A stretch of 52,853 nucleotides of DNA from Acidobacteriota bacterium (GTDB taxonomy: Bacteria; Acidobacteriota; Polarisedimenticolia; J045), in assembly GCA_030949985.1 (NCBI GenBank), contig JAUZRX010000037.1, forward strand, positions 1 through 52,853, written 5' to 3'. Positions 26,629 to 49,803 of the stretch are shown here, piece after piece (the first letter of the stretch is position 1; each line of letters opens with the position of its first letter). A program made the position numbers and the translations under genes. Under the pieces are notes generated by a model. The model had not been told where the DNA came from. It did not search any database and worked only from the letters and a program-made list of their open reading frames with translations.

Positions 26629-29600
26629 GTGGAGCACCGGCAAGCAGGCAGCTACCTGGTCACGCGCCCGGTGGCCATCACGATGGTCTTTCTCGCGGCC
26701 GTCGTCTTCGGCGCCCTCTCCTACTCGCGCCTGGCCCTGCGGCTGATGCCCGAACTGACCTACCCCACCATCACCGTCCGCACCGAGTACCCGGGTGCGG
26801 CCCCCCAGGAGGTGGAGAGCGACATCTCCCGGCCCATCGAGGAAGCCGTGGGAGTGGTCGGCGGCCTGGGCCGGATCAGTTCCATCTCCCGGGCGGGCGT
26901 CAGCGACGTGGTGCTGGAATTCGACTGGAAGGCCGACATGGCCGAGGCCACCCAGAGCGTGCTGGAGGAGTTGGACCGTGTGTTGCTCCCCGAGCAGGCC
27001 GAGCGACCGCTGATCCTGCACTACGACCCCTCGGAAGACGCCGTGCTGGAATTGTCCCTGGCCTCGACCCGCGAGGGCCCTTCGGACGAAACCGAACTGC
27101 GTCGCCTGCGCCGCCTGGCCGACCGGCGCATCAAGCGCACCCTCGAACCGATTCGCGGCGTGGCGGCAGTGCGTGTCAGCGGCGGCCTGGAAGAAGAGAT
27201 CCAGGTCCTGCTCGACGAGGAGCAACTCCGGCGCCTGCGCATTTCCGCCGCCCAGGTCATCGACCGCCTGGCGGCCGAGAACATCAACCTTGCCGGGGGA
27301 ACGATCCGCGACGGTCGCAGCGAATACATGGTACGCACCCTCGGCGAATTCACGAACCTTCAGCAGATCGCCGACACGGTGGTGGCCGAGCGGGACGGCG
27401 CGCCGCTGCGCATCAAGGACCTGGGCCGGGTGGTGCGATCCCACAAGGAGCGGGAGATCATCACCCGCACCGACGGGCGACCCGCCGTGCGCGTCGAGAT
27501 CTTCAAGGAAGCCGACGCGAACATCGTCGACCTGGCCCACCGGGTGCGACAGGCGGTGGGCAGCGCCGACGAGGGGGAAGAAAGCACCAGCCTCGCGGCC
27601 CTGCTGGCTCACGACGAGAAGGCCGCACTCAAAGTCGTCGCAGACCGTTCCCTGTTCATCGAGAGCAGTCTGCGCGAGGTGCGCCAGGCCGCCATCCTCG
27701 GTGGCCTGCTGGCGGTCGCCGTGCTGCTGCTGTTCCTCCGTCGCCTGCGGCCGACAGCGATCATCGCGGCGAGCATCCCCGTCTCCCTGGCCATCACCTT
27801 CGCACCGCTCAACCTGCTCGGCGTCTCGCTGAACATCATGTCTCTCGGCGGCCTGGCCCTCGGCATCGGTATGCTCGTGGATTCTTCCATCGTCGTGCTG
27901 GAGTCGATCCACCGCTGCCGGGAGGAGGGTGACACTCCGGACCAGGCGGTGGTGCGGGGCACCCGCGAGGTGCGCTCGGCGGTCTTCGCCTCGACCCTGA
28001 CCTCGGTGGCGGTGTTCTTTCCCATGGTCTTCATCGAAGGCGTGGCGGGCCAGGCCTTCGGCGACCTGGGCACGGCGGTGGTGGTCTCCCTGCTCGCTTC
28101 GGCGGCGGTGGCCCTGGTCCTGATCCCGATGCTCGCCGCCCTCGGCGGTTCAGGGACACGACCCGCGGCGCCCTACCGCCTGCGGGAGCTGCTGCGCGTC
28201 GCCTCCGCCCGGCGTTTCGCCGACGCCTTCCGCTCGACCTCGCTGACGCGCTCGATCGCGGCCACTCCTTTCCGGCTGCTGCTGCTGGCCGTGGCCCTGC
28301 CTCTCGAGATCGCCGGCCGGGCGCTGCTGGCGCTGCTGATTCTCCTCTTCCTGCTGGCGCGCCTGGTCGGCCGGGGCCTGGCGGCCATCGGGCGACGGGC
28401 CCGCCGCCGGCTGCCCCCGGACGCCGGCAGCCCTCCCCGCTTCTACCCCAAGCTACTCACCGCCGCCCTGAGCCACCCCTGGTTGCTGCTGCTGGCCGTC
28501 ACCGCCTGCCTCGCCGCCACCGCCGCCGTCCTCCAGCGCATGGAGAGCGAGCTGCTGCCCGAAGTCCACCAGGGCGAATTCACCGTGGAAGTGGCGCTGC
28601 CGGTGGGCACGCCCCTCGATCACACCGCCGAGGTGCTGACCCCCGTCGAACAGGCCCTGCTGGCGGAAAGCGAAGACATCGAGAGCCTGCTGTTGACCCT
28701 GGGATTCGACAGCGCCCAGTCTCAGCGCTCCGACGAGGGCGAGCACACGGCCCGCTTCAAGGTGCTTCTGGCGCCCAGCCGCCGCCCCGAGGAAACAGAG
28801 CGGCGAATCCTCCGGCGCATTCGCCGGCGCCTGGCCACCATTCCCGACATGGAAATCCGCGTGGTGCGTCCGGTACTCTTCAGCTCGAAAACCCCCATCG
28901 AGGTGGAGATCCAGGCCGACGACCTGATCCAGCTCAGGGCCCTGGCCGATCAGGCCGCGGACCTGCTGGCGGAGCTTCCCGAGCTGACTGACGTGGAGAG
29001 TACCCAGCGGCGGGGCGCCCCGGAGATCCAGGTGATCTACGACCGGGACCGTCTCAGTCGCCTGGGCCTGGACATCCGCAGCGTGGCCCGGCTGGTGCGC
29101 AACAAGGTGCAGGGCACCGAGGCCACCCGCTACAACCTGCTCGACCGGAGGATTCCCATCGTCGTGCGCCTCGGCCTCGATGACCGGGAAACCACCGACG
29201 AGGTGCGCGCCCTGGACGTCAACCCGAACGGCACCCGCCCCCTTCCTCTCGAAGCGGTGGCCCGCGTGGTGGTGGGCGAGGGCCCGAGCGAGGTACGGCG
29301 CATCGACGGCCGACGCTCGGCCCTGGTCACCGCCAACCTGGCCAGCGGCTCGCTGACCGGCGCCGCCGCCCGCATCGAGGAAGTACTCGGCCGGGCCATG
29401 GACTGGCCCCTGGGGACCGACTTTCGCATCAGCGGCCAGAGCGAGGAGTGGCAGCGCAGCCGGCGCAGCCTGTGGCTGGTGCTCGCCCTGAGCGTCTTCC
29501 TGGTCTACGTCATCATGGCCGCCCAGTTCGAGTCGCTGATCCACCCCCTGGTGATCATGATCACCATTCCCCTGGCCTTCATCGGCAGCATCGTCGCCAT

Positions 29601-29976
29601 CTGGCTGACCGGTGTGAACATCTCGGTGGTGGTGCTGCTGGGGCTGATCATGCTGGCCGGCATCGTGGTCAATAACGCCATCGTACTGGTGGACTACATC
29701 AACGTGCTGCGCGACCGGGGCCTGGGCTTGCGGGAAGCGGTGGTCACCGCCGGCGGCGTGCGGCTGCGACCGATCCTGATGACCACCGCGACCACCGTGC
29801 TGGGCCTGCTGCCGATGGCGGTGGGCTGGGGTGACGGAGCGGAGATCCGCCGCCCGATGGCCATCGCGGTGATCGCCGGGCTGCTCTCCTCCACCGCCCT
29901 GACGCTGGTGGTGATCCCCGTGGTCTACGAACGCATCGAGTCGCTGATCGGTCGCCGCGGAAGGGCGCGCCGATGA
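26629..29976 (+). CDS. RND efflux permease 1 (HAE-1-like)
   Basis: Inner-membrane proton-driven transporter of 1115 residues, about 60-80 longer than AcrB. GTG start two bases after the adaptor stop. Typical features: first helix followed by MPELTYPTITVRTEYPGA, TM4 with GLALGIGMLVDSSIVVLESI (one of the two usual relay aspartates kept, the second replaced by Ser), and TM10 NNAIVLVDYINVL. Between the halves an extra segment of about 100 residues (around 505-605) holds Arg-rich stretches and an additional long hydrophobic run, which accounts for the excess length. Substrate is unknown. It is coupled to permease 2 by ATGA. Confidence 0.94.
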   Translation: MEHRQAGSYLVTRPVAITMVFLAAVVFGALSYSRLALRLMPELTYPTITVRTEYPGAAPQEVESDISRPIEEAVGVVGGLGRISSISRAGVSDVVLEFDWKADMAEATQSVLEELDRVLLPEQAERPLILHYDPSEDAVLELSLASTREGPSDETELRRLRRLADRRIKRTLEPIRGVAAVRVSGGLEEEIQVLLDEEQLRRLRISAAQVIDRLAAENINLAGGTIRDGRSEYMVRTLGEFTNLQQIADTVVAERDGAPLRIKDLGRVVRSHKEREIITRTDGRPAVRVEIFKEADANIVDLAHRVRQAVGSADEGEESTSLAALLAHDEKAALKVVADRSLFIESSLREVRQAAILGGLLAVAVLLLFLRRLRPTAIIAASIPVSLAITFAPLNLLGVSLNIMSLGGLALGIGMLVDSSIVVLESIHRCREEGDTPDQAVVRGTREVRSAVFASTLTSVAVFFPMVFIEGVAGQAFGDLGTAVVVSLLASAAVALVLIPMLAALGGSGTRPAAPYRLRELLRVASARRFADAFRSTSLTRSIAATPFRLLLLAVALPLEIAGRALLALLILLFLLARLVGRGLAAIGRRARRRLPPDAGSPPRFYPKLLTAALSHPWLLLLAVTACLAATAAVLQRMESELLPEVHQGEFTVEVALPVGTPLDHTAEVLTPVEQALLAESEDIESLLLTLGFDSAQSQRSDEGEHTARFKVLLAPSRRPEETERRILRRIRRRLATIPDMEIRVVRPVLFSSKTPIEVEIQADDLIQLRALADQAADLLAELPELTDVESTQRRGAPEIQVIYDRDRLSRLGLDIRSVARLVRNKVQGTEATRYNLLDRRIPIVVRLGLDDRETTDEVRALDVNPNGTRPLPLEAVARVVVGEGPSEVRRIDGRRSALVTANLASGSLTGAAARIEEVLGRAMDWPLGTDFRISGQSEEWQRSRRSLWLVLALSVFLVYVIMAAQFESLIHPLVIMITIPLAFIGSIVAIWLTGVNISVVVLLGLIMLAGIVVNNAIVLVDYINVLRDRGLGLREAVVTAGGVRLRPILMTTATTVLGLLPMAVGWGDGAEIRRPMAIAVIAGLLSSTALTLVVIPVVYERIESLIGRRGRARR

Positions 29977-32900
29977 GCCGGGGCGAGGCATCGCTGGCCC
30001 GCTTCTCCCTCGACCGCCGAGTGACGGTTTTCGTGCTCTTCCTGACAGTGGTCGTGGTCGGCCTGGTGGCCGCCACGGGCATTCCCGTCGAGCTGGTGCC
30101 GCGGGGCTTCGATCCGCCGTTTCTGTCGCTCTCGGTTTCCTGGCCCGACGCCCCGCCCCGGGAAGTGCTCGACAAGCTGGTGCTGCCCCTCGAGGAGGAG
30201 ATGGCCACCGTGCGGGGCATGGGGCGTATCTCTTCCTACGCAGGCGTGGGCCGGGCCCAGCTCTGGCTGCAATTCAAGCAGGCCACCGACATGGACGTGG
30301 CCTACCGGGAAGTACGCGACCGCATCGAACGGGCCCGCCGCCGCATGCCCGCCGAAATCGACCAGGTCCGGATCCACAAGGAAGACGAAGCCTCGATCCC
30401 CGTGCTGGTGCTGGGGGTGGCGGTCGACCCGGAGGTGGGCGATCCCTACGAGCTGCTCCAACGCGGCCTGGCGCAGCGCCTCCAGCGGGTGGAAGGCGTG
30501 GCCGCGGTGACCACCGACGGCCTGGAGGAAAAAGAGATCCTCATCGAGCTGGACCGACGGCTGGTGGAATCCGCCGGCCTGGATCTCTTCCAGCTCGGCG
30601 AGCAACTCGCGGCGGACAACTTCACCCTCCCCGGAGGCAAGGTCTTCGACGGTGGTCGCCGCCTGCTGCTGCGCTCGGTGGCCCGCTACGAGAGCCTCGA
30701 AGACCTGCGCGGGCGGTGGATCGCCCCGGGAGTGCGCCTGGGCGAAGTCGCCACCATCACCTACGAGGAGCCGAAGAAGAACTACCGCGTCAGGGCCATG
30801 GGCAAACCGGCGGTGGCGATGGTGATCCTCAAGGAGGGCGAAGCCAACGCCCGGGAAGTTTCGAGCCGCCTGGCCGCGGTCCTCGAGGAGATCGAACAGG
30901 ACCCGCGCCTGGCGGGGCTCGAAATCATCACCCTCTTCGACCAGGGCCGGGTGATCGATGAATCCCTCGATACCATGCTGGGAAGCGGCCTGGTGGGCGG
31001 CTGCCTGGCCGCCCTGGTGCTGCTTTTCTTTCTCCGCCGCTTCCGGCTGACGGTGATCATCGCCCTGTCGATTCCCCTGAGCCTGGTGCTGGCGCTGACG
31101 GTGATGTTCTTCGCGGGAGAGACGCTGAACATCCTCTCTCTGCTGGGCCTGATGATCTGTGTCGGCCTGCTGGTGGACAACGCGGTGGTGGTCGCCGAGA
31201 ACATCCACCGCCTGCACCAGGAAGGCCTGGACCGGCGCGAGGCCTCGATCCGCGGCACCGGCGAGATCGCGCTGGCGATCACCATGTCGACCATGACCAC
31301 CATCATCGCCTTTCTCCCGGCTGCCCTGGTGGAGGGTGACGCCCGCTTTTTCCTCGTGCGCCTGGCCCTGCCGATTTGCGTGGCCCTGGCCGGATCGCTG
31401 CTGGTGGCGCTGGTCTTCGTTCCCCTCTGCGTCTACCTCACCCTGCCCGAAAACGCGGGCGACCGACCCGCCGGCCGACTGGCCGGGATCGGCGAGATCC
31501 TGCGCCGGGGCGGCCTCTGGCTCTACGACCACAGCCTGGGGCCCCTCGCCGCTGTCTACGACCGTCTGCTGGCCCGGGCCCTGGGCCGGCGTCTGGAGCT
31601 GGTGCTGGCCCTGGCCGCTCTCTTCGCCCTGACCGCGGCCTTTCCCTTCGGCGCCGCCCTGGATCCTGAAGATTCCCGGGCGGTACGCTTCACCGACGTG
31701 CAGGAAGAGGAACGCTCGGGGCTGTCGATCCGGGTACGCATGCCCGCCGACACGACCCTCGAGGAGGCCGAGAGCTGGTTCCGGCGGACCGATCAGGTTC
31801 TCGAGCGGCACCGCGAACAGTGGGATCTCGACGGCTACTTCCACTTCCACCGCTCGCAGGAGGGGGAAATCCAGGCCTGGTTCAAGCGCCCGCGTCAGAA
31901 CGAGCTGACATCCGCCGAGGTGACCGAGCTGTTCATCGCCGCCCTTCCCGTCCGTCCCGGCTTCGTGATCCACTCCGGCCAGAAAAGCCAGGTCAGCAAG
32001 GAGCGCGGCGATGACACCTTCAGCGTCATCCTGACGGGGGAAGATCCGGAGAGGCTGGAAAACGTGGCCCTGTCCCTGACCGCCGAACTGGTGCGGATCG
32101 ATGGTGTGATCGGCGCCCGCAAGGCCTTCGAAACCTCCCGGGAAGAGCTTGGGCTGGTGGTGGATCGGGACCGGGCCCGACGCTACGGCGCCGAGCCCCG
32201 GGTGATCGCCGCGGTGGTGGGCACGGCCTTGCGGGGCCGCAGCCTGCCCCGCTACCAGGACCGGGGCCGGGAAGTACCGGTGCGCATTCGCTTCCGCGAG
32301 GCCGACCGGGAAGAGCTGGCGGAACTGGAGACCTTCCTGGTGCCCAGCGCCTCGGGGCCCCTCTCCCTGGCCACCCTGACCGACGCGCGCCCCCTGGCCG
32401 GCGCTCCCTTCATCTACCGGGAGAACCGCCGAATCTCCCGCACCATCACCCTCGATCTGGCCGAAGAAGACCGGGAGGCCACCCGCCAGCGACTGGCGGC
32501 CCTGGTCGCGGGACTGGCGCTGCCCGAAGGCGTGCACCTGGCCAGCCGCACCCAGCGGGAAGACTTCGACAGCGACCTGTCGAGCCTCTTCTTCGCCCTC
32601 GGCTTGTCTGTGATCTTCATCTACCTGCTGATGGGCTTTCTCTTCGAGAACATCATCTTACCCCTGTCGATCGTGCTGACCATTCCCCTGGCCGCCATCG
32701 GTGTGGGCTGGATCCACTTTCTCGCCGACCGGGACATCGACTTCCTCGGCGCGGTGGGCATCGTGCTGCTGGTGGGAGTAGTGGTGAACAACGGCATCGT
32801 GCTGGTGGACACCATCGGCCGCCTGCGCCGCCAGGGCCTGCCACGCGACGAGGCCGTCGGCGCCGCGGCCCGGCGCCGTTTCCGTCCGATCATGATGACC

Positions 32901-33134
32901 GCCATCACCACCGTCGGCGGAATGATCCCCCTGGCCTTCGCCGGGACCTCTTCCATCGGCATGAGCTACACCAGTTTCAGCCTGACCCTGATCGGCGGCA
33001 TGACCTCCGGTACCGCCCTGACCCTACTGGTCGTACCCGTCTTCTACACCTTCTTCGACGACGCCACCGCGGCTTCGATCCGCGCCTGGTGCACGGCCCG
33101 TTCTCTCGCTGTGGCCGCCAGCCGGCGCCAGTAG
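29973..33134 (+). CDS. RND efflux permease 2 (HAE-1-like)
   Basis: Second permease of 1053 residues, close to the usual RND length. It begins with RFSLDRRVTVFVLFLTVVVVG and VELVPRGFDPPFLSLSVSWP; TM4 carries MICVGLLVDNAVVVAENIHR and TM10 VVVNNGIVLVDTIGRL. It is clearly divergent from permease 1, so the pair is not a recent duplication. One adaptor followed by two unlike permeases is the arrangement of MdtABC, where the permeases form a heterotrimer; the same is inferred here. No terminator is obvious in the 280 bp that follow. Confidence 0.94.
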   Translation: MSRGEASLARFSLDRRVTVFVLFLTVVVVGLVAATGIPVELVPRGFDPPFLSLSVSWPDAPPREVLDKLVLPLEEEMATVRGMGRISSYAGVGRAQLWLQFKQATDMDVAYREVRDRIERARRRMPAEIDQVRIHKEDEASIPVLVLGVAVDPEVGDPYELLQRGLAQRLQRVEGVAAVTTDGLEEKEILIELDRRLVESAGLDLFQLGEQLAADNFTLPGGKVFDGGRRLLLRSVARYESLEDLRGRWIAPGVRLGEVATITYEEPKKNYRVRAMGKPAVAMVILKEGEANAREVSSRLAAVLEEIEQDPRLAGLEIITLFDQGRVIDESLDTMLGSGLVGGCLAALVLLFFLRRFRLTVIIALSIPLSLVLALTVMFFAGETLNILSLLGLMICVGLLVDNAVVVAENIHRLHQEGLDRREASIRGTGEIALAITMSTMTTIIAFLPAALVEGDARFFLVRLALPICVALAGSLLVALVFVPLCVYLTLPENAGDRPAGRLAGIGEILRRGGLWLYDHSLGPLAAVYDRLLARALGRRLELVLALAALFALTAAFPFGAALDPEDSRAVRFTDVQEEERSGLSIRVRMPADTTLEEAESWFRRTDQVLERHREQWDLDGYFHFHRSQEGEIQAWFKRPRQNELTSAEVTELFIAALPVRPGFVIHSGQKSQVSKERGDDTFSVILTGEDPERLENVALSLTAELVRIDGVIGARKAFETSREELGLVVDRDRARRYGAEPRVIAAVVGTALRGRSLPRYQDRGREVPVRIRFREADREELAELETFLVPSASGPLSLATLTDARPLAGAPFIYRENRRISRTITLDLAEEDREATRQRLAALVAGLALPEGVHLASRTQREDFDSDLSSLFFALGLSVIFIYLLMGFLFENIILPLSIVLTIPLAAIGVGWIHFLADRDIDFLGAVGIVLLVGVVVNNGIVLVDTIGRLRRQGLPRDEAVGAAARRRFRPIMMTAITTVGGMIPLAFAGTSSIGMSYTSFSLTLIGGMTSGTALTLLVVPVFYTFFDDATAASIRAWCTARSLAVAASRRQ

Positions 33135-45852: not shown

Positions 45853-46959
45853 TCAGCGGATTTTCAGGGAGAGGAAGCCGATGGTGGCCAGAATCATGGC
45901 GACGATCCAGAAGCGCACCACCACCTTGGGCTCGGGAATGCCCGCGTGGCTCATGGCGTGGTGGAAAGGGGCGCGGTGGAACACCCGCCGGCCGATGCGG
46001 TCGCCCACCTTCTGCTGCATCAGCGAGGTGAAGATCTCGAAGACGAAGACGCCGCCGACGATGGGAAAGAGCATCTCCTGCTTGGTCAGGAAGGCCATCA
46101 TCGCCAGCACCCCCCCGATGCCCAACGAGCCGGTGTCCCCCATGAAGACCTCGGCCGGATAGGTGTTGAACCACATGAAACCGAGAATGCCCCCGATCAA
46201 CACGCCGGCGAAGACCGCCATTTCGCCGGCCCCCGGAAGATAGGGAAACAGCAGGTACCGCGCGTAAATCGTGTTGCCCAGGATGTAAGCATAGACCAGG
46301 TACACACCGAGACCGAAGGTGGAAGTGCCGCAAAGCAACCCATCCATGCCGTCGGTGATATTCACCGCGTTGACGATGGAGAAGATGGCGAACACGGCGA
46401 AGAGCACGAACCCCACCGGCGTCAGGTCCAGCAGCGGCTCCTTGTAGAACGGGATGTAGAGCAGCGTCCGCTCCCTCGCGGGCAGCGGACTGAAGTCGGA
46501 AACCAGGAAGACGGCGAAGGGCACGATGCAACCCAGCAGCAGCAGGGTCTTGGCCGCCTGGCTCAGTCCCGACAGGGACGACTTGAAACGGGACTTGAGG
46601 GAGTCGTCGAGGAAGCCCACCAGGGAGAGGTAGGAGAAGCCTCCCACCAGCGGCCAGAAGAACCGGCTTTCCAGGTCGCCCCAGAGGAAGACCGAAACCA
46701 GGGTGGAGGCCAGCAGGATCAGCCCCCCGGCGGTCGGCGTGCCCCGCTTGGACTCGGCGCTCAGGGAGAGGAAATCGCCGGAGGTGTCCCGCAGCCCCTT
46801 GTCGTAGAGGCGCACGATGAAACGGAAACCGAAGAGCAGGCTCAGCCCCAGGGCGGTGGCCATGCCCAGCAAGGCGCGCACGGTGATGTAGTTGGCCAGC
46901 CGGAGAAAGCCGGCATCGACCCCCAGGTCGGCCAGCCACGCGGCGAGCAACTTGATCAT
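45853..46959 (-). CDS. mraY: MraY-type phospho-MurNAc-pentapeptide transferase, variant motif
   Basis: Polytopic membrane enzyme of 368 residues, normal MraY length, making lipid I from UDP-MurNAc-pentapeptide and undecaprenyl phosphate. Seen: KRGTPTAGGL, VGFLDDSLKS, NAVNITDGMDGL, VFMGDTGSLGIGG and the C-terminal PEPKVVVRFWIVA. The conserved APxHHHFE signature reads APFHHAMSHAG, so the third His of the HHH motif is replaced by Ala. ATG 46959 overlaps the murG stop (ATGA); the open frame upstream is antisense-like sequence inside murG. The variant motif leaves open a changed substrate or a paralogue role. Confidence 0.9.
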   Translation of the reverse strand: MIKLLAAWLADLGVDAGFLRLANYITVRALLGMATALGLSLLFGFRFIVRLYDKGLRDTSGDFLSLSAESKRGTPTAGGLILLASTLVSVFLWGDLESRFFWPLVGGFSYLSLVGFLDDSLKSRFKSSLSGLSQAAKTLLLLGCIVPFAVFLVSDFSPLPARERTLLYIPFYKEPLLDLTPVGFVLFAVFAIFSIVNAVNITDGMDGLLCGTSTFGLGVYLVYAYILGNTIYARYLLFPYLPGAGEMAVFAGVLIGGILGFMWFNTYPAEVFMGDTGSLGIGGVLAMMAFLTKQEMLFPIVGGVFVFEIFTSLMQQKVGDRIGRRVFHRAPFHHAMSHAGIPEPKVVVRFWIVAMILATIGFLSLKIR

Positions 46960-48959
46960 CCCATCCGCTCCAGTTGTTCGATCACCCGGATGTAGCGCGA
47001 ACGCACCCGGAAATGGGGCCGGAACTCCGAGGTGGTCACCAGCATCCGTTTGACGAAGAGGCGCACGCGGGCGATGTCTTCGAAACGCCCGGCCCTCAAC
47101 CCGAGAGAAATGGCATCGAGCAGGGCTTCCCGCAGGCGGATCTTCCGGGACGCCCGGTAGCGCTCCATCCGCGCCAGGAACGTCGTCTCGTCCAGGAAGA
47201 GCACCGCGGCCAGGATCGCCTCGGCCCGCACTTCCCAACTCTCCAGGCGTCGATCGAGGCGTGAGAGGATCAGTTCGTGAATGTCTTTCCGCGCGGCCAT
47301 TGGCCCGTGGAAGCGCCGGTAGAGGGCGATGGCCTCCCGCCGCGTCTCGTAGTAGCCGTCTTCGAGTCCGGCCCGCACCAGGTCGCCGAAAAAGGGCTCG
47401 TACGCCCCCGCCCGCCGGAGGGCGGCCAGGGCGTTCCGCTTGAGGTAGCCGCGGAAACCGTCGAAGTGGTCCCGGATGAAGGGGTAGCGCTCGCGACACC
47501 CCAGGGCGCCGATCAGCTTGATGCCCCGGTTGACCACCAGGTCGTCGGAAGAAGCCAGGTACTCTTCCATCTTGATCCGGTAATACTGGCGGTAGAGTTC
47601 GTCCACCGATCGTTCCCGCCCCTCGACCGCCAGGTACTTGATCAGGCTGTCGAAGTTGCGCTGAAAGCGCACGAAGCGGGGCTCGACCACCTGGGAGACG
47701 AAATCCACCGGCCGGCGCCCGAGGACACTGGAGACGGCGCGCACCACCGAGTCTTCCATGCCCCGGTCGTAGAGTGCCGCGGCATGGGCGGCCAGGGTCC
47801 GGCGACGCTCGGGATCGGCGGCCAGGGCCTCGATGCGCGCCGCCAGTTCCCCGGCGTCCACCATGTCCCGGCCGCTGGACGGATCCCGGCGTTCGAAGAG
47901 CACCTCGGCTCCGTCTTTCTCGGCCACGGCCAGGGCGTTGAACTCCTGGTGATCGCCAGGCAGGCCGCGCTTGGGGATCAACAGCGCCGCGCGCCCCAGC
48001 GCCAGCACCTCGGAAAGGGAGCCGGCTCCCGCCCGGCAGACCAGCAGGTCGGCGGCCCGCTGGTAGTCGTAGAGATCGTCCAGGTAACGGTAGCCGCGAT
48101 AGAAGACCCGACCGTCCTCCCGCCTGGCCACCAGGTCGGCGGCCTGGAAGCGCTCGCCCAGCACGTCACGGATGCGCCGCGCGGTGTCTCCCACCGCGTC
48201 GTAGGAGCGGGAAGCCTGCAGGCCGACACTGTGCACGATGACGAGCCTGTCCACCCGGGCCAGCCGCCCGAGGGCCGCGGCCAGCGCCCGGTTGATGCTG
48301 CGCGCACCCATCGAACCACCGGCCACCACCACCACGAAAGCATCCTCGGGCAGGTTCAGCCGGCGGCGCAGCGCCCCCCGCTCCTCTCCCTCTTCCAGGT
48401 AGGTCCGGCGCACCGGGTAGCCCGTGGCCACGCAGCGATTGTTCCAGATGAAGTAGGCGGTCTCCTTGAAACTCACCAGCACCAGGTCGGCGAAGAGCGA
48501 GGCGAACTGGTTGAGCAGGCCGGGCACCAGGTTCTGCTCGTCGATGACGATGCGCAGGCGAAGGAAGGGTTTGAGCAGGAACGCCGCCACGATCACCGGG
48601 GCCGAGACGTAGCCGCCGGCCGCCAGCACCAGCCGGGGCCGAAAACGCAGCAGCCAGGCCATCGAGGCCAGGGCCCCACGCAGCACCGAAGCCAGTGCCC
48701 GCAGCTTGGCCGGCCACGAGCCCCCGGCAAAGGGCGCGGCCGGAATGAACTGCAAAGGGATGCCCTGGCGGGGAACGATTTCTTCTTCCGCCCGGCCCCG
48801 CACGCCAAGGTAGAGCGCCTTGCCCACGATACCCCGCCGGCGGAGCATCTCGTACAGCGCCAGGCAGGGATAGACGTGTCCGCCGGTCCCGCCCCCGGTC
48901 AGGACGACACGCACCCCCCTGGCGGTCGGGGGAGCCGTGGATTCCCGTCGCGAGGCCAT
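46956..48959 (-). CDS. murG: MurG glycosyltransferase with C-terminal HEAT-like extension
   Basis: Protein of 667 residues against about 360 for MurG. The GT28 part (about 1-410) has the donor/acceptor loop TGGGTGGHVYP (21-31), IDEQNLVPGLLNQ, GGSMGARSINRAL and CRAGAGSLSEVLALG, matching lipid I:GlcNAc transferase. Residues about 416-667 (46956-47714) are helical, with recurring hydrophobic patterns (VNRGIKLIGALG, LKRNALAALRRAG, TRREAIALYRRF) like HEAT repeats and no stop or frameshift between the parts. The start is ATG 48959; the longer frame would run through nfuA antisense. It lies 14 bp after nfuA and overlaps mraY by ATGA. The extension may dock MraY or other cell-wall enzymes. Confidence 0.9.
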   Translation of the reverse strand: MASRRESTAPPTARGVRVVLTGGGTGGHVYPCLALYEMLRRRGIVGKALYLGVRGRAEEEIVPRQGIPLQFIPAAPFAGGSWPAKLRALASVLRGALASMAWLLRFRPRLVLAAGGYVSAPVIVAAFLLKPFLRLRIVIDEQNLVPGLLNQFASLFADLVLVSFKETAYFIWNNRCVATGYPVRRTYLEEGEERGALRRRLNLPEDAFVVVVAGGSMGARSINRALAAALGRLARVDRLVIVHSVGLQASRSYDAVGDTARRIRDVLGERFQAADLVARREDGRVFYRGYRYLDDLYDYQRAADLLVCRAGAGSLSEVLALGRAALLIPKRGLPGDHQEFNALAVAEKDGAEVLFERRDPSSGRDMVDAGELAARIEALAADPERRRTLAAHAAALYDRGMEDSVVRAVSSVLGRRPVDFVSQVVEPRFVRFQRNFDSLIKYLAVEGRERSVDELYRQYYRIKMEEYLASSDDLVVNRGIKLIGALGCRERYPFIRDHFDGFRGYLKRNALAALRRAGAYEPFFGDLVRAGLEDGYYETRREAIALYRRFHGPMAARKDIHELILSRLDRRLESWEVRAEAILAAVLFLDETTFLARMERYRASRKIRLREALLDAISLGLRAGRFEDIARVRLFVKRMLVTTSEFRPHFRVRSRYIRVIEQLERMG

Positions 48960-48973
48960 CGCCGCCGCGGGCT

Positions 48974-49546
48974 TCAGTGGGACATGAAAGGGTGGGTTCC
49001 CGCGCCGTGATCGGTTCGGTCGACCACGTCGCTGATCTCGGGCACTTCCCCGATGATCGCCCGCCGGATCCCCTCGCTCAGAGTGGCCTGGGCGCCGGAG
49101 CAGCCCTGGCAGCCCCCGCCGAGCTGGACATAGGCCACACCATCGCTGACCTCCACCAGCTCGATCCAGCCGCCATGCTGGGCCAGGGAGGGCTGCACGC
49201 GCTGATCGAGGACCGACTGCACCTTCCTGGCCACCGGATCTTTCCACTCGGGCTCGGCGGCGGGGTTTTTGATCTGGAAGCCGGCGTTGCCGTCGTGCTC
49301 GACGAAGTCGACGGTGGCGTCTTTCATCCACTCCGCGGATTGAGCATCGAAGACAGCCTTGATGCCGTCGGCCTCGACCACCTGGTCCTGCTCGGTGATC
49401 TCCCCGTCACCCACCAGCTGCAAACCGTAGCGGAAGGTGTAGTTGCCCACCTTGGACGCGCGAATCCTCAGCGCGTTGGCGTCGTCGCCGGACTCTTCCA
49501 TGATTTCGCGGATCTTGCTGCTCGCCGCCTGAGTGAAGCTGATCAT
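48974..49546 (-). CDS. nfuA: NfuA-type Fe-S cluster carrier
   Basis: Protein of 190 residues, the usual NfuA length. An N-terminal degenerate IscA/HesB-like domain (about 1-95) lacks the IscA cysteines, and a C-terminal NifU domain (about 105-175) has the cluster-binding C136-x-x-C139 in LGGGCQGCSGAQ. It carries [4Fe-4S] clusters to apo-proteins, useful under oxidative stress or iron limitation. ATG 49546 follows AGGAG with good spacing. It is the first gene of the minus-strand run nfuA-murG-mraY; the functional link of Fe-S carrier and cell-wall genes is not evident. Confidence 0.93.
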   Translation of the reverse strand: MISFTQAASSKIREIMEESGDDANALRIRASKVGNYTFRYGLQLVGDGEITEQDQVVEADGIKAVFDAQSAEWMKDATVDFVEHDGNAGFQIKNPAAEPEWKDPVARKVQSVLDQRVQPSLAQHGGWIELVEVSDGVAYVQLGGGCQGCSGAQATLSEGIRRAIIGEVPEISDVVDRTDHGAGTHPFMSH

Positions 49547-49742
49547 CTGAAAATCTCCTCGTTGACTCCGGATCACGGGAAGGCAGTTTACCCTTCCCCG
49601 GCCGGAATTGCGCCTCGGGACCGGGGCGGATGGGGCCTCATCCCGCCCGGCGGCCACCGGATCACAGATGCGTAACCACCTTTGGGTTTCACGAACCGGC
49701 GGCGTTCCCACCTGCCGGCCCTCGTGAGAGCGCCGAAGTCCG

Positions 49743-49748
49743 TATACT
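49743..49748 (+). promoter_or_regulatory. Putative -10 box of the S9 peptidase gene
   Basis: TATACT lies 55 nt upstream of ATG 49804, within the 257 bp region between this gene and the divergent nfuA. No -35 match at normal spacing is visible. The rest of the gap shows no other clear element. Confidence 0.3.
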
Positions 49749-49803
49749 AGCGGCTTGCCCGGCCCCGCCGCCGCTTCCGGCCCGGGGCCCACAGAGAGAG
49801 ATC

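Follow-up and report, generated by a model that had tools for sequence, protein, structure and literature searches.

Fused enzymes of peptidoglycan synthesis are well known, and MurE-MurF, MurB-MurC, MurC-Ddl, MurG-MurC, MraY-MurG, and FtsW-MurG have all been described (PMC6420597, PMC4929429). These fusions join steps of the pathway in one chain, an arrangement that has been read as pointing to a multi-enzyme complex; the same kind of joining was found in relatives of the protein studied here, in which MurG and MurJ share a chain (G052, G005, and G043). For the possibility that MraY, MurG, and MurJ act together in a single complex, the evidence so far consists of two-hybrid results, co-localization, and operon order in model bacteria. 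The analyzed DNA, called the window, is a 52,853-nucleotide stretch of contig JAUZRX010000037.1 from an Acidobacteriota bacterium, and it encodes a MurG fused to a HEAT domain (residues 419-667, labeled EXT). Whereas the known fusions join pathway enzymes to each other, chains of this type add the HEAT domain and, among relatives, also MurJ, placed either before or after MurG, and neither addition was found in the available portions of the two papers cited above. The window chain itself comprises one enzyme plus the HEAT domain and so has no second catalytic or transport step.

The murG-EXT gene lies on the minus strand (48959..46956), starts with an ATG at 48959, ends with a TGA at 46958-46956, and forms an open frame of 667 residues with no internal stops. 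This confirmed the original prediction of a 667-residue fusion of MurG to a HEAT-like extension, with a complete MurG at about residues 14-415 followed by a HEAT solenoid at 419-667. Both GT28 domains scored over their Pfam cut-offs in the same chain: the N-terminal domain (residues 18-161; 48477..48908, minus strand; PF03033, E 4.5e-29), which carries the GGGTGGH and DEQN motifs, and the C-terminal UDP-GlcNAc domain (residues 209-358; 47886..48335, minus strand; PF04101, E 8e-19), which carries GGSMGAR, RAGAGSLSE, and HQEFNA, so that all five active-site motifs are kept in the window copy. The two domains and the glycine-rich, EQN, RxGA..E, and HQxxNA motifs are shared with the GT28 enzymes MurG of E. 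coli (1f0k) and P. aeruginosa (3s2u), and the MurG part of the relative L094 matched 3s2u with a TM-score of 0.89 over the target. Unlike those enzymes, the window protein has a 250-residue HEAT extension, a longer segment in the UDP-GlcNAc domain, a clade of its own, and a gene position outside the dcw cluster. The GGS-to-RxG spacing had a median of 89 in EXT-type MurGs versus 67 in ordinary MurGs, among the sequences in which both motifs were found.

Against TIGR01133 (murG), residues 16-405 scored 205.6 bits, below the NCBIfam equivalog cut-off of 250.25. All EXT-type MurGs searched fell below this cut-off (maximum 249), and the ordinary MurGs of the family mates G002 and G003 reached 282-288. 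Because the window MurG is the only one present in its genome, the low score was read as the mark of a divergent clade. The MurG and MraY trees were quick ones, with SH-aLRT as the sole measure of support; in the former, a branch with 99% SH-aLRT separated all 67 EXT-type rows from 27 ordinary MurGs, among them those of the family to which the window belongs. In the latter, in which L042 is labeled ordinary only because its contig cuts EXT, the window's EXT-linked MraY was placed far from the ordinary MraYs of the family.

The window genome (G000; 3.7 Mb and listed as 100% complete, with G001 as a same-genus relative) has one MurG, murG-EXT being the sole match to both PF03033 and TIGR01133, and one MraY over the cut-off. 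The murG-EXT product is most likely the working lipid II synthase of the cell and is predicted to transfer GlcNAc to lipid I, the step that yields the final cell-wall precursor formed in the cytoplasm. The only mraY (45853..46959, minus strand; 368 aa; TIGR00445, 246.7 bits with a cut-off of 192.05) starts at 46959, overlapping the murG-EXT stop codon as ATGA. The dcw cluster was located on contig C44 (G000:C44), where rsmH, ftsI, murE, murF, murD, ftsW, murC, ftsQ, ftsA, and ftsZ were recognized from translations and Mur-ligase matches, and where our own profiles gave no match to MurG or MraY. The dcw regions of G008, G055, G052, G043, and Desulfacinum infernum likewise have no murG or mraY, whereas the family mate G002 keeps both in place in its cluster. 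On this comparison, the ordinary pair appears to have given way to the EXT-type pair in the window lineage, and the MurG tree supports such a replacement. Both the window (48974-49792, minus strand) and G008 (L034:3650-4222, minus strand) have an apparently NifU-like gene immediately upstream of murG-EXT, and the new locus is therefore common to the family. In G246, an ordinary MraY (430 bits; L216, G246:C62:14676-15644) occurs besides the EXT-linked one, together with only an EXT-type MurG; contamination and a real mixed state are both possible there.

The EXT region (46959..47705, minus strand) was modeled by AlphaFold2 as a solenoid of 13 helices (pLDDT 91.9, pTM 0.88). A profile of the EXT family searched against the PDB matched designed HEAT proteins (alphaRep) at E 2e-16, and Foldseek retrieved alphaRep, the PP2A scaffold, and importin folds of the HEAT/ARM class, with a best E of only 1.9e-3 and TM-scores of about 0.46-0.6 over the EXT query. 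Pfam HEAT_2 matched four of seven EXT family members; since Pfam found no HEAT model in the window EXT alone, the assignment of the latter is based on its fold and on the profile of the family. The HEAT-like identity proposed earlier for the extension was thus borne out by structure prediction and by the profile search of the PDB. With known HEAT/alphaRep solenoids (PF13646; 3ltj, 6gx7; PP2A scaffold 1b3u), EXT shares the solenoid of helical pairs; it differs as a distinct family with invariant residues of its own, a constant linkage to mraY, and a gap in score from generic HEAT proteins. The most conserved stretch (47340..47531, minus strand) holds N477, K481, L482, G504, R508, N509, D534, Y536, E538, and R540, all invariant in 51 relatives (alignment A2); R610, outside this stretch, is invariant in the same alignment. 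Purifying selection on EXT equals that on the catalytic part, with dN/dS of 0.126 and 0.135, respectively, between the window and G001.

The extension is not peculiar to the MurG of the window, as it is widespread and occurs in several phyla. EXT was found in 48 of 396 sampled Acidobacteriota genomes at no less than 80 bits (next match, 33 bits), in 15 of 297 Desulfobacterota genomes at 168 bits or more (next match, 56), in 19 of 392 Planctomycetota genomes at 95 bits or more (next match, 70), and in one of 42 Fermentibacterota genomes. Further loci were labeled as Krumholzibacteriota, Delongbacteria, Calditrichota, and Proteobacteria. That the extension might be both common and already described had been named as a reason to discard the idea of a novel fusion; common it is, whereas no paper found in the open-licence literature searched describes a MurG that carries a HEAT domain or a HEAT domain next to MraY.

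For the comparison of gene arrangements, 62 loci were used, 61 from a single EXT-motif scan plus the window, and mraY was not a selection criterion. They comprised 24 MurG-EXT chains, seven MurG-EXT chains with a separate murJ nearby, nine MurJ-MurG-EXT and 14 MurG-MurJ-EXT chains, two MurJ-EXT chains cut by a contig end, and six EXT loci lacking an in-frame MurG, four of them (L110, L132, L144, and L147) truncated by the end of the contig and two (L140 and L146) standalone. In the EXT tree, most architectures were grouped, yet several changes between them are needed. At L119 (3555-5714), inspection by eye gave an apparent N-terminal transmembrane segment ahead of the MurG of a MurG-EXT chain.

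The constant neighbor of EXT is mraY, which lies directly downstream in 61 of the 62 loci, and the remaining one, L087, ends at the contig edge. Among strong EXT loci whose downstream side was examined, all adjoin mraY save L225/L258, where no mraY lies directly downstream of EXT, and the loci cut by a contig end. Within the Planctomycetota, mraY follows 18 of the 19 strong EXT matches (at least 95 bits) and none of the 10 loci listed for generic HEAT matches (at most 70 bits). Standalone HEAT genes located directly before mraY made up 11 of those 19 strong matches and also occurred in one Fermentibacteria genome (L251:8371-9057, L253:8342-9022, L228, L231-L240, and L140:4737-5648). In G778 and G746, EXT is positioned between ftsW and mraY within the dcw cluster. 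The Fermentibacteria genome G404 keeps murG in a dcw cluster that has no mraY, and its only true MraY adjoins the standalone EXT; likewise, the standalone EXT of the planctomycete G406 precedes the only MraY, with MurG encoded elsewhere. These two genomes, the ones with a standalone EXT in which the position of MurG was checked, and the Planctomycetota counts indicate that EXT follows MraY, not MurG.

A link to MurJ, the lipid II flippase of the MOP family, had not been foreseen, and many relatives proved to carry a complete MurJ within their EXT chain (PF03023, E 7.7e-69 in P0003 and 1.1e-75 in P0005); the window's own chain has no MurJ. The presence of MurJ, MurG, and HEAT in a single chain was confirmed by Pfam and NCBIfam. 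Single MurJ-MurG-HEAT frames, about 1160 aa long and with mraY next downstream, were found at L035 (6437-9931; G052), L040 with L039 (G005), L089-L096, and L101; G005, from the window's own family, has MurJ and the start of MurG in one frame and the rest of MurG with EXT on another contig. MurG-MurJ-HEAT frames of 1071-1320 aa were found at L037 (7317-10532; G043), L038 (8063-11632; G058), L106, L111, L116, L258, and L262. In the longer of these frames, a segment of about 100-120 residues separates MurG from MurJ, and Pfam matched nothing in that of L111, the one scanned. G043 and G058 have no MurJ over the cut-off besides the fused one. The two fusion orders lie apart in the MurG tree, and the joins therefore look independent, which suggests that EXT-type chains acquired MurJ separately in each order. 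We found no description of a MurG-MurJ fusion in the open-licence literature searched. In the window genome, MurJ is encoded on other contigs than murG-EXT, so coupling to the flippase was not seen there. The genome G055 (L036), listed as 96% complete and carrying MurG-EXT and MraY, gave no MurJ by TIGR01695, and another flippase may serve.

We consider it more probable than not that EXT is a HEAT scaffold partnering MraY, which would hold MurG, and MurJ in many relatives, beside that enzyme. EXT would dock on the cytoplasmic side of MraY and keep MurG over the membrane next to it. MurG could then receive lipid I directly as MraY makes it, and in lineages with a fused or neighboring MurJ the resulting lipid II might move on to the flippase with no free diffusion. 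Given the usual membrane topology of MurJ, all of the arrangements would leave MurG and EXT in the cytoplasm. Operon adjacency need not mean binding. Of the earlier suggestion that the extension is a scaffold for MraY, the genomic link stood firmly, on the counts given above for the 62 loci and for Planctomycetota, while the physical contact between EXT and MraY is what we infer from it. An AlphaFold2 model of the 1159-residue MurJ-MurG-EXT chain L094, built from 28 sequences (pLDDT 78.4, pTM 0.57), reproduced MurG and EXT well and MurJ poorly and gave no firm arrangement of the domains; a fold search with it confirmed only MurG and MurJ. A broader proposal, which we judge about as apt to hold as to fail, is that EXT is a widespread and so far undescribed accessory subunit of MraY, free in part of the Planctomycetota and welded to MurG, and in two orders to MurJ, in Acidobacteriota, Desulfobacterota, and others, forming a lipid II assembly line that would physically couple the making of lipid I and of lipid II to flipping. 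MurG-MurJ chains in two orders, together with a shared HEAT domain almost always beside mraY, are strong independent evidence for a MraY-MurG-MurJ complex. The fused chains offer single-chain constructs for structural work and for tests of lipid I and lipid II hand-over, and the HEAT protein would add a new candidate component to a pathway that is both essential and targeted by antibiotics.

The main rival to the scaffold is a regulator of MraY. EXT would sense a lipid, nucleotide, or protein signal and adjust lipid I synthesis, and its fusion to MurG would let lipid II synthesis report back to MraY. Standalone EXT beside mraY fits such a role, feedback control of MraY has a precedent in P. 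aeruginosa (PMC10914600), and the first EXT repeats contain invariant charged residues. We nevertheless regard it as unlikely: Pfam, AlphaFold2, and Foldseek gave only a HEAT binding fold in EXT and no recognizable ligand or enzyme domain, and its repeated covalent joining to MurG and MurJ suits assembly better than sensing. The original prediction had offered a sensor as its second option, and nothing in these results favors that option over a scaffold.

Less probable still is that EXT serves as a localization tag that anchors lipid II synthesis at the membrane or at the machinery of elongation or division, with mraY as its neighbor merely through operon order. In favor of a tag, MurG of model bacteria interacts with MreB as well as MraY (PMC6420597, PMC4929429), and EXT adjoins ftsW in G778 and G746; yet mraY stays beside EXT in different phyla and settings, whether within the dcw cluster or away from it and with or without murG or ftsW. 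A basic surface for membrane binding was also considered, given the net charge of +13 of the window EXT, and was not supported as a constant feature, as the charge ranges from -3 to +23 across EXTs with a median of 6.

That the MurG-EXT/MraY pair makes a lipid-linked precursor of some polymer other than peptidoglycan is very improbable. The sub-cut-off murG score (205.6 vs 250.25) and the separate clade would agree with it, but the MurG motifs are kept, the MraY exceeds its equivalog cut-off, and the genome retains ftsW, ftsZ, and the Mur ligases; the absence of any other MurG or true MraY from this essentially complete genome led us to reject a second polymer pathway. A frameshift or misassembly joining two genes, named in the original prediction as a possible refutation, has a negligible chance of explaining the fusion even though most relatives are metagenome assemblies, since a matching boundary recurs in many independent genomes, among them that of an isolate, Desulfacinum infernum DSM 9756 (L121), and the one-contig genome G153, and EXT is under purifying selection. 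Elsewhere in the window, two large adjoining frames on the plus strand (26629-29976 and 29973-33134) resemble RND-type transporters, as judged by eye only.
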